Assembly (NCBI RefSeq): GCF_024462775.1
Contig: NZ_JANGCE010000004.1
Span: forward strand, 1 to 64,000
Direction: 5' to 3'
Source of the DNA: Butyricicoccus faecihominis
GTDB taxonomy: Bacteria; Bacillota; Clostridia; Oscillospirales; Butyricicoccaceae
DNA length: 64,000 nt
Shown here piece after piece: positions 33,052 through 63,343 of this stretch (position 1 is the stretch's first letter; the number at the start of each line of letters is the position of its first letter). Under the pieces are notes generated by a model, which was not told where the DNA came from, did no database searches, and saw only the letters and a program-made list of their open reading frames with translations. A program made the translations under genes and the position numbers.

Positions 33052-33084
33052 CAGACTGTCAAAAAATTATTTTTTGACAGTCTG
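33052..33084. repeat. Solo copy of the S5 hairpin (terminator-like)
   Basis: A 15-bp stem CAGACTGTCAAAAAA / TTTTTTGACAGTCTG with a 3-base loop. The same CAGACTGTCAAAA...TTTTGACAGTCTG hairpin is the last unit of both structured elements at 53.3 and 61.2 kb. Here it stands alone, between the rpoD terminator and another hairpin (33085-33112, GCGGC-x-TGCTCC with GGAGCA-x-GCCGC). Confidence 0.8.
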
Positions 33085-53190: not shown

Positions 53191-53252
53191 GCCGCCGCCT
53201 CCTTTCAAAAACATGATATTTCTTTATATGGTAGCACGGAACAGAAAAAGAA

Positions 53253-53537
53253 GCAAGGTATAGTGTTTTCCACTATACCTTGCCTCACAGCGTATCAAAG
53301 AACTCCCTCGCGCCGCAGCGCGCATAAAATAGAATTTTGCCGTTTGCGGCAAAATTCATAAAAACCGGGAGCATGTATCTCGGTTTTTATACAAACCGAC
53401 TTCAAGTGTGCCTGTAAGGCGCGCGCAGAAGTCGGAATTCTCGATCGAAATGGGGCTATGTTTCGATCGACAGACTGTCAAAACTTGTTTTTTGACAGTC
53501 TGAGAGGCAAGGTATAGTGTTTTCCACTATCCCTTGC
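53253..53537. repeat. Structured repeat element, copy A, with duplicated flanking hairpins
   Basis: Left flank 53253-53283 and right flank 53507-53537 are the same 31-base hairpin (13-bp stem, starts GCAAGGTATAGTG; one mismatch between copies). Between them lie 223 bases with five hairpins. S1 is 53332-53342/53347-53357. S2 is 53360-53370/53378-53388, with loop GCATGTA. S3 is 53396-53403/53428-53435, with an inner stem 53406-53412/53418-53424. S4 is 53441-53450/53461-53470. S5 is 53471-53502. S2 ends in a T-run and would act as a terminator on the plus strand. No ORF is present. The core matches 61185-61399. Confidence 0.88.
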
Positions 53538-53550
53538 TTCAGGCTGTCCC

Positions 53551-61147: not shown

Positions 61148-61436
61148 AGCAGATGGAAGAGAAACTTGTTCTCTTCCATCTGCTCAACTTGTCAAAGACC
61201 CCCTCGCGCCGCAGCGCGTAATAAAATTGAAAATTGAAGCTTTGCTTCAATTTGACCAAAAACCGGGAGCATGTATCTCGGTTTTTGAACAAACCGGCGG
61301 CGAAGTGTGCCCAAAGGGCGCGCGCCAGAGCCGGAATTCTCGATCGAAATGGGGCTTTGTTTCGATCGACAGACTGTCAAAAATATTTTTGACAGTCTGA
61401 GCAGATGGAAGAGAAACTTGTTCTCTTCCATCTGCT
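61148..61436. repeat. Structured repeat element, copy B, with duplicated flanking hairpins
   Basis: Left flank 61148-61184 and right flank 61400-61436 are identical 37-base hairpins (16-bp stem, starts AGCAGATGGAAGAG). The 215-base core (61185-61399) aligns with copy A. S1 is 61231-61240/61244-61253, with different bases but the same pairing as copy A. S2 is 61258-61268/61276-61286, with the same GCATGTA loop. S3 is 61294-61298/61330-61334, with an inner stem 61305-61312/61316-61323. S4 is 61340-61349/61360-61369. S5 is 61370-61399. Left of the left flank is an A-run and right of the right flank a T-run, as if one bidirectional terminator had been split by insertion and its hairpin copied. 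Confidence 0.9.
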
Positions 61437-61447
61437 TTTTTGGTTTG

Positions 61448-63343
61448 TTATTCCTCGCCGTCCTTGCGGTGGCCGAGCAGCGCGCCGACAGCGGCGGTGA
61501 GCAGGCCGAGCGGGAACAGCAGGCCCGGGGTAAGGCCGCCGGTCTGCGGCAGCTTTGCCGCCGCTTTCGGTACCTCTTCGTCGGGAAGCTCGACGGTTTT
61601 GCCGTCCTCTTCCTCCGCGCCGGGCGCGAGAGGCGTCTCCCCTTCCGGAATCTCCGTGGTATCGCCGGGGGAAAGCGGCGCCTCGCCGTCCGGGATCTCG
61701 GTTGTATCGCCGGGCGAGAGCGGTATTTCACCATCCGGGATATCGATCCCGCCGTCGGGTTGGCCCGGCTTATGGTTGTTATGGCCGCCGTCGTTACGGC
61801 TGGGCTCGCGTTCATTCATGACGGTCAGCGCTGCGCCATCGGCATGCGCCGTACCTTCCGTATCCAGACGGCGCACGGATATAGAACCGTTTTGCTCAAA
61901 AAGCTCGATGGGCCAAACGGCCTTTCGCTCGCTCTGTCCGGCGATCGATTCGCCCAAATAGTAACCGTCCGGCGCCTTGGTCTCGGTCAGCGTATACGCG
62001 CCTGTCGGCAGGTTCTGAAAGACGATGCGCCCGTTTTCATCGGTCGTGAGCGGCTTTTCCTCTGTGTATTTCGCGCCCGTTACGTCGTAATACGCGCCCG
62101 CGGCGTCTTTCAGGGTAAACACCGCGCCCGCGAGCGTATTGCCCAACTGGCTGTTCTCCTGCTCCGCATCACGCTTGACAATGGAAAGCGCGCCAAAGCG
62201 AACGTTTGTAATCGTGATCGCGCCGTTTTCCACCGCGGTCGCGCCTTCGCTGTCCGCCCGCTCGACAATGGGCGCGCCGTTCTCATCGCGCTTTACATTC
62301 AGCTTCCAAACGGTCTTGCGCGCGGTCTGCCCCTCCACCTGTTCACCGAGGTGATAGCCCGCGGGAGCGACGGTCTCGGTCAGCGTATAGCCGCCCATGG
62401 GCAGGTTTCTGAAAACAAGCTTGCCGTCCGCCTGCGTTTCCAGTTCGCGCGTTTCGCCTTCGCCGAGCTTGCCGGAAGCGCCGTAATAGTTCCCCTCGTC
62501 GTCCGCAAGCGTAAATTTCGCGCCAGCCAGAGCGCCAGCCGTTTCCGCATCGCGCTTCACGACGGTGATCGAGCCGTAGCGCTCGTTCGTAATGACCAGC
62601 TTGCCGTCCGTAAGCTGCATGTCTTCGCTGGAAACTATCGTATCGCCGTTTGCGTTTTGCTCCACCGTCAGTTTCCAGCTGGTCTTGCGCGGCGTTTGTC
62701 CATTCGCCATGCCAAGCTGGTATCCTTCCGGGGCGGCGGTCTCGGTCAGCGTGTATGTACCCACCGGCAGCTTGCCGAAGGCGATACGGCCGGCAGCGTC
62801 GGTCTCAAGCTCCTTTTTATCCGCCGATACCGCGCCGGTGGCATCGTAATACTTGCCGTGCGCGTCGGTCAGCGTAAACTTTGCGCCCGCAAGGACCGCG
62901 CCGTTTTCCGCATCCTGTTTTTCCACGGTCAGCGAACCGACCGGATCGTTTTTAATCGTTGCGGTAAGCGTCTTTTCGCCGTCGAATGCAAATACGTGTT
63001 CCGCGTTCTCCGGAAGTTGATAGCCGTCCGGCGCCTGTGTCTCCGTTAGCTTGACAAACTGGGTATCCTTCGGCAAGCCGCTGATCTTCAGCGTGCCGTC
63101 CGCCTTGGTTTTTAAGCCCGCCGCGAACGTGGTATAGGTTTGACCGTCCGCGGAATAGGCGGCGTCAAATTTCGCGCCCGCAAGCTTTAGCGCGGTGTTT
63201 TGGGAAGAAACCTTGGTCAATGTCAGGCTTTTGCGTTCGGCGGCCGTGCCGCCGTGGGGGCCGCCCGCGCCCCCCCCCCCCCGCCGGCCGCTTTTTTGCC
63301 CTGCGGGCGTAGAATCTCCAAAAGGCGGGTAGAGCGTGGGCAA
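61448..63343 (-). CDS. LPxTG-anchored SpaA/Cna_B-repeat surface protein, 5' end missing or disrupted
   Basis: A frame of 631 codons with a surface-protein body but no believable start. Four SpaA/Cna_B beta modules follow one another (each ends in LTETxAPxGYxLG, with isopeptide-type Lys and Glu). Next come three 15-residue repeats of the type IPDGEAPLSPGDTTE, then the sortase signal LPQTG, a hydrophobic helix and HRKDGEE. It would be covalently attached to peptidoglycan. The N-terminus lacks a signal peptide: the first in-frame start is a TTG (63343) without a ribosome binding site, and a run of 13 G on the minus strand (63270-63282) lies between it and the first module. It is truncated, phase-variable or misassembled. 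Confidence 0.72.
   Translation of the reverse strand: MPTLYPPFGDSTPAGQKSGRRGGGGAGGPHGGTAAERKSLTLTKVSSQNTALKLAGAKFDAAYSADGQTYTTFAAGLKTKADGTLKISGLPKDTQFVKLTETQAPDGYQLPENAEHVFAFDGEKTLTATIKNDPVGSLTVEKQDAENGAVLAGAKFTLTDAHGKYYDATGAVSADKKELETDAAGRIAFGKLPVGTYTLTETAAPEGYQLGMANGQTPRKTSWKLTVEQNANGDTIVSSEDMQLTDGKLVITNERYGSITVVKRDAETAGALAGAKFTLADDEGNYYGASGKLGEGETRELETQADGKLVFRNLPMGGYTLTETVAPAGYHLGEQVEGQTARKTVWKLNVKRDENGAPIVERADSEGATAVENGAITITNVRFGALSIVKRDAEQENSQLGNTLAGAVFTLKDAAGAYYDVTGAKYTEEKPLTTDENGRIVFQNLPTGAYTLTETKAPDGYYLGESIAGQSERKAVWPIELFEQNGSISVRRLDTEGTAHADGAALTVMNEREPSRNDGGHNNHKPGQPDGGIDIPDGEIPLSPGDTTEIPDGEAPLSPGDTTEIPEGETPLAPGAEEEDGKTVELPDEEVPKAAAKLPQTGGLTPGLLFPLGLLTAAVGALLGHRKDGEE
61625..61745. 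repeat. 45-bp tandem repeats in the surface-protein linker
   Basis: Three imperfect 45-base units encoding 15-residue repeats (IPDGEIPLSPGDTTE, IPDGEAPLSPGDTTE, IPEGETPLAPG) just before the LPQTG signal. Such wall-spanning linkers often vary in copy number. Confidence 0.65.
63270..63282. repeat. 13-base homopolymer (poly-C on plus, poly-G on coding strand)
   Basis: A run of 13 C near the 5' end of the surface-protein frame. Each gain or loss of a base would change which upstream frame joins the body. Confidence 0.85.

Follow-up and report, generated by a model that had tools for sequence, protein, structure and literature searches.

Evidence for a MITE-like element of Clostridia that duplicates whole hairpins on insertion and carries a structured core, probably RNA

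What is the multi-hairpin stretch that occurs twice, between different genes, in the 64,000-nucleotide window (the whole stretch of Butyricicoccus faecihominis DNA analysed here)? The original prediction, made from the letters, described a dispersed non-coding element of about 220 nt with two copies, 53284-53506 and 61185-61399, and we found its sequences and hairpins where it had placed them. By BLAST, copy 2 aligned with copy 1 at 83% identity over query bases 12-221. Hairpins S2, S4 and S5 are common to both copies, while S1 and S3 are unlike, each with both arms altered. The folding energies of the two copies lie at z -16.0 and -15.1 relative to dinucleotide shuffles, the folded stretches including the flanking hairpins. 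We read this locus, with a probability of about 0.82, as a MITE-like non-autonomous transposable element that duplicates a hairpin on insertion, is mobilised by an IS1182-type transposase and carries a structured core that is probably RNA. The dispersed, folded nature of the element had thus been recognised; its transposable nature and its terminal inverted repeats had been missed, as had its insertion in terminator-like hairpins, the whole hairpin being the target duplication. The element proper covers about 53288-53502 in copy 1 and about 61185-61399 in copy 2. The parts are as follows (G004 is a one-contig genome of the same species).

53250-53286, no strand assigned: left duplicated hairpin of copy 1; T-rich tail and terminator-like call on the - strand, that of the EAL/GGDEF gene
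53288-53303, + strand: left terminal inverted repeat, CAGCGTATCAAAGAAC
53309-53322, + strand: core hairpin S0 (CGCGCCGCAGCGCG)
53332-53357, + strand: core hairpin S1; sequence variable, arms covarying; also called terminator-like on the - strand
53358-53390, + strand: core hairpin S2, loop GCATGTA; most conserved part among distant relatives
53396-53435, + strand: core hairpin S3, AAGTGTGCC...GGCGCGCGCAG; covariation in the lower stem; G.U pairs nearly fixed at two positions
53441-53470, + strand: core hairpin S4 (TCGATCGAAA/TTTCGATCGA); no variation in the stem among the 28 aligned copies from this genome, covariation from species to species
53471-53502, + strand: S5, the right terminal inverted repeat, palindrome CAGACTGTCAAAA...TTTTGACAGTCTG
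53503-53541, no strand assigned: right duplicated hairpin of copy 1; 92% identity to the left one; terminator-like on neither strand
61148-61184, no strand assigned: left duplicated hairpin of copy 2; empty site in G004
61185-61399, + strand: element copy 2 (left repeat 61185-61200, core, right palindrome 61370-61399); locus empty in G004
61400-61436, no strand assigned: right duplicated hairpin of copy 2; 100% identity to the left one, then a T-tract
33052-33084, no strand assigned: lone right-end palindrome with two different hairpins around it; possible remnant

S5 is the right terminal repeat folded upon itself. The same palindrome occurs alone, with neither core nor duplication, at 33052-33084 of the window and at about 1440-1475 of locus L056; these lone right ends may be a remnant or a minimal element. 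On the - strand, a protein with repeated SpaA (prealbumin-like) domains (61448-63343) adjoins copy 2.

The element proved far from confined to the two window copies. Across the whole genome (3.69 Mb in 56 contigs), BLAST located it at 40 distinct places, split pieces being counted once each. When the fetched loci were searched again, now also with copy 2 of the window as query, L053 was added and the number rose to 41, which excludes the window locus itself (L001). These places represent at most 40 insertions, since L002 and L003 share their flanks and may be one insertion duplicated along with its surroundings. Additional ends occur where contigs stop, the assembly being broken by repeats, and shortened or degenerate copies are also present. 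Plasmid and phage records gave no match to the element.

At its insertion sites the element is bracketed by two copies of one hairpin, which varies from locus to locus: 53250-53286 recurs at 53503-53541 and 61148-61184 at 61400-61436, and the hairpins of these two loci differ. Local alignment of left with right flank passed a fixed score at 33 of 41 places in this genome and, in the part of G004 that was sampled, for 31 of 40 copies (8 and 9 did not reach it), against 3 of 1640 and 2 of 1560 mispaired controls, respectively. The two sets are not independent, because the G004 stretches were partly picked around known hits and some insertions are common to both genomes. The duplicated unit measures 21-44 bases (median 33, n=64), and 62 of the 64 hairpins fold at -16 kcal/mol or below; the exceptions, L007 and L034, are shortened. 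We call these hairpins terminator-like. Between the two hairpin copies the loops may be mutually inverted (L031 compared with L184; also L024, L140, L166, L183 and L202), and at L031/L184 the flip postdates insertion, since the two strains differ there. In L013 (1501-1720) both arms of the left hairpin are altered relative to the empty site in L150, resembling hairpin-templated correction.

Comparison with G004 was possible at 16 of the 41 places, those with both flanks within the fetched stretches; the other 25 were not comparable. The element is present in both genomes at eight loci, including the 53-kb window copy, and G004 is empty at the other eight, including that of the 61-kb copy, with a single hairpin at each. 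This eight to eight is not a rate, as the stretches were partly chosen around G004 copies. Among the filled loci we counted L031, where the element is in the G004 sequence although the computed gap is 176 or 546 depending on direction; at L025 the left hairpin and left end are lost. The empty sites are direct evidence for an insertion that duplicates a whole hairpin. Together with the flank duplications, they establish a mobile, non-autonomous element.

Insertion leaves the two hairpins unequal. Of the nine bases following the hairpin, six or more are T for 2 of 64 left and 30 of 64 right copies; the nine bases preceding it contain a mean of 5.6 A for left and 3.1 A for right copies. The old terminator keeps its outer halves outside the element, so that a neighbouring gene first meets a hairpin lacking its T-tract, next the element and last a hairpin that has the T-tract. 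A transcript of that gene probably reads across the element and stops at the second hairpin, since each hairpin copy has lost the old T-tract or A-tract on its inner side and retains it on its outer side. A sigma-70 scan found no promoter-like site inside the element, and with such read-through a promoterless element could be transcribed at any landing site. For the 53-kb copy the left hairpin and S1 were called terminator-like on the - strand (EAL/GGDEF gene, addB), and the right hairpin was uncalled. With genes called crudely as the longest ORFs, 40 copies here comprised 17 convergent, 11 sense, 8 antisense and 4 divergent insertions, and those of G004 14, 10, 8 and 8, respectively. As any orientation bias is unclear, a required sense role in the neighbour's message is disfavoured; a host small-RNA or 3′UTR role needing sense orientation is unsupported by these counts as a general case.

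We then consider the core. It was aligned in 45 sequences (44 distinct), namely 41 of 90 matches of covariance model R1 and four further copies from this genome; doubled records, weak, opposite-strand and long-insert matches were left out. With the fold read off the window copy, 95.3% of cells pair and 39 of 54 pairs have changed on both sides, as expected of the selected fold already proposed from two copies; the rows were, however, found with a model already holding such a fold. None of 500 shuffles reached any of five covariation measures. Sliding the partner by 1-3 columns reduced pairing to 28-52%, a contrast due in part to the fold having been taken from a single row. The unpaired stretches are conserved as well. 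The core is thus under strong structural constraint, S2 and S3 being kept while the outer parts diverge. Optional inserts recur, a similar S2-loop insert being carried by L035, L037 and, in another species, L073. A pseudoknot between the S2 loop and a TACA in the linker was unsupported, by eye on alignment A3 alone.

The original prediction had no named family to offer for this order of hairpins, and the element matched none in Rfam 15, which gave no match in the window at gathering score and at most 15.5 bits on the window copy below it. Among 27 relative loci two matches were obtained, to T-box (L072) and skipping-rope (L217), both outside the element; below gathering, mir-504 scored 27.9 bits (gathering score 57, E 0.00065) against the - strand of an L219 hairpin. 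The skipping-rope match (L217, 1132-1228, - strand, 49.6 bits) lies near an element copy in another family and is followed by a hairpin and a T-tract. A possible link to that RNA was dropped.

The original prediction left open whether RNA or single-strand DNA is folded. Three G.U pairs are nearly fixed (40 of 43, 40 of 43 and 34 of 44 sequences), which favours a + strand RNA: in DNA these positions would be mismatches. The core could instead act as DNA, in the same mobile element and with no RNA function, by binding a hairpin-recognising transposase or through hairpin-templated repair during replication. Elsewhere in the fold, G.U and A.C cells are equally frequent (31 and 30), with no sign of RNA over DNA, and sense and antisense insertions are about equal. 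The paired changes in both arms of the L013 flanking hairpin, acquired after duplication, would also suit such repair, and IS ends carry hairpins beside their repeats (by eye). Against this, the unpaired stretches are conserved and the S2/S3 core is kept between families. We give the DNA alternative appreciable weight, well short of even odds, and regard the core as likely an RNA structure.

A moving enzyme was sought through the ends. Among the 56 contigs of this genome no complete IS1182 transposase gene was found; contig C9 starts with the 3′ part of one, downstream of which lie a right end and a terminator-like hairpin. G004 gave no match to PF13751, to relatives of the C9 fragment or to DUF772, though it holds at least as many scored element copies. 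Of the 25 genomes of the genus, 4 contain relatives of the C9 fragment and 12 the DUF772 domain, neither this genome nor G004 being among the 12. The profile NF033551 matched 3 of 14 element-bearing genomes, two of them above its cut-off. G045 holds a complete relative, L102, which encodes a 492-aa transposase (403.5 bits against NF033551, cut-off 270); its ends are CAGTCTGTCGAAAAAGTCC and CAGCCTGTCGAGAAACCC, and a perfect 30-bp palindrome lies on either side.

We further examined 16 IS1182 loci from 10 of 245 genomes of the order, picked by likeness to L102. The palindrome is duplicated in the same manner at ten of them; a single IS in a single genome accounts for five of these ten, and L197 is L102 again. 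At five others the script detected no duplication, and the remaining locus could not be scored. Compared with the best of seven IS ends, nine element ends were identical at 13-16 of 16 bases, a figure given without a chance control. The structured core was absent from the 37 IS or transposase loci examined, some of them overlapping, and the idea that it forms part of IS1182 elements was dropped. An IS1182-type transposase is the likely mobiliser, judging by the matching ends and the same duplication. If so, it would come and go among genomes. A mover of another kind, from a distinct DDE family or resident and host-encoded, would suit the many copy-rich genomes with no IS1182-family match, as well as the ends that have diverged to TGACAAA in family f76 (below). 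We consider it unlikely, given the agreement between element and IS ends and the palindrome duplication made by IS1182 elements themselves.

How far does the element extend? Model R1, with at most 33 candidates scored per genome, matched all 25 genomes of the genus (Agathobaculum) and 35 of 87 of the family (E up to 0.001), and in the order 15 of 245 genomes (E up to 0.0001). A second model, R2, was built from diverse copies on the model-fitted alignment A6, because in alignment A5 the f13 rows were out of register in the 3′ half of S3. Across the class, R2 matched 17 of 391 genomes, which belong to families f1, f13, f35, f44, f55 and f76, with S2 best preserved. Outside f1 and f13 homology is likely, not certain, as the matches (about 34-62 bits) rest largely on S2. 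A pattern scan of an 84,980-species collection, from which records near the window's own genome may be missing, returned 29 stretches, all from Agathobaculum, Intestinibacillus massiliensis or Eubacteriales S27M_St_5. The covariance-model search and Rfam comparison recommended at the outset thus widened the range of the element to several Clostridia families and left it unnamed, at gathering and lax thresholds alike. In L234 (G231), three R1 core matches stand head to tail at 707-1379.

Hairpin duplication was scored in these relatives too. It was detected at 5 of 20 loci taken one per genome (control 2 of 380), a set of 19 Agathobaculum loci and L072 of genus g5, with L081, L082 and L088 having no anchor and L078 left out. 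The counts were 3 of 6 in genus g6 (control 0 of 30), 5 of 14 in genus g197 of f76 (control 0 of 182) and 0 of 6 in g303. For f13, with shifted windows and L232 replacing L215, 3 of 12 were duplicated (control 0 of 132). Windows cutting the left hairpins had given 1 of 12 (control 5 of 132), and the duplication at L215 was rejected as a false internal palindrome. In g197 the ends have become TGACAAA, and several copies again have a palindromic right end. IS1182-type ends accompany the core in at least three families, f1, f13 and f76. The mobility of the element, its targeting of terminator-like hairpins, the duplication of whole hairpins and the selection on its fold are all solidly supported. 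The novelty lies in a core of conserved structure, probably an RNA, that such ends carry across wide distances.

Two further explanations are very improbable. Group IIC introns likewise insert next to intrinsic terminators and are structured RNAs; they are spliced ribozymes with a reverse transcriptase, and they leave no target duplication. A short relative of these introns, reverse transcribed into terminators, would account for the structured core and the terminator-like targets, and left ends do seem to vary slightly more than right ones (by eye). Such RNA-mediated mobility is largely refuted by matched inverted repeats at both ends, by the hairpin duplication and by DDE elements that share this signature; within the window, Rfam gave no match to group II introns or to any other family. 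HEARO and omega RNAs are structured RNAs inside IS200/IS605-type elements, tied to IscB/TnpB and inserted without target duplication. Here, duplication is present and Rfam gave no match, which sets the element apart from both groups. Finally, a host regulatory small-RNA family spread by ordinary duplication would fit the conserved structure and the duplication in only 5 of 20 one-per-genome loci of other species, but hardly the within-species insertion polymorphism with clean empty sites or the dozens of different contexts with unclear orientation bias.

We return to a transposon probably mobilised by IS1182-type enzymes. ISfinder gives IS1182 elements direct repeats of variable and sometimes great length, and long duplications as such may already be known for the family. 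In the excerpts of PMC5678879 and PMC4923244, IS1272 and TnSha1 of staphylococci (IS1182 family) target hairpins and terminators without primary-sequence preference, and the outcome reported for IS1272 is loss or replacement of the target hairpin, with no duplication; duplication of the whole hairpin is drawn as an alternative pathway (PMC5678879, Figure 13, pathway b). Transposase family and hairpin/terminator targeting are thus held in common. Unlike what those excerpts give for IS1272, whole-hairpin duplication is common here and the element is short, non-coding and structured. Bacterial MITEs, as outlined in part of the review PMC10969869, are likewise short, transposase-less and probably moved in trans, with inverted repeats, target duplication and a folded transcript. 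The present element differs from that outline in duplicating a whole palindrome of 21-44 bp (7-9 bp repeats in the QMITE2 example given there) and in an interior that keeps a covarying fold between bacterial families; the word IS1182 is absent from the main text of the review. Similarly, in the part of PMC3049150 considered, the pneumococcal BOX, RUP and SPRITE are folded dispersed repeats enriched between convergent genes, as here, and BOX is modular and expressed. SPRITE, from another lineage, itself resembles a terminator according to that part of PMC3049150, whereas the present element inserts into terminator-like hairpins and duplicates them. No description of the element was found in the open-access literature searched by title or abstract start.

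Transposition would then proceed as follows. Terminal inverted repeats of the form CAGNNTGTCRAA, read directly from the sequence, would be cut and joined in trans by an IS1182-family DDE transposase, a step for which we find strong indications, on a substrate that is perhaps an extruded cruciform. Entry takes place at both feet of a palindromic, terminator-like hairpin and leaves a whole hairpin on either side, as the flanks and empty sites show. The neighbour's transcript would enter the element and end at the second hairpin, and the core may act as a + strand RNA for the element itself, for example in binding the transposase or in shaping transcription through the ends. This would explain how the element enters a terminator yet leaves a whole-looking one. 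Natural genomes with empty sites indicate that hairpin-targeted insertion with IS1182-type ends often duplicates the whole palindrome, which PMC5678879, in the part cited, draws only as an alternative. They also reveal, in several Clostridia families, a structured core outside Rfam, and raise the question of what use a folded RNA is to a transposon that needs only its ends. Tentatively, and at somewhat under an even chance, we suggest a Clostridia-wide family of RNA-carrying transposons: a conserved ncRNA would keep borrowed IS1182-type ends, land in terminators for neighbour transcription and clean termination, and, as an RNA, take an active part in spreading itself or in controlling host genes.

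Two observations concern individual copies. In two species, L073 and L079 adjoin seemingly the same gene end (by eye) in opposite orientations, perhaps a recurrent target. In L033 (G000 C12, 192500-195600) and L095 (1-670), one copy of the element is interrupted by a foreign insertion with a transposase-like reading frame, apparently an IS3-type element.
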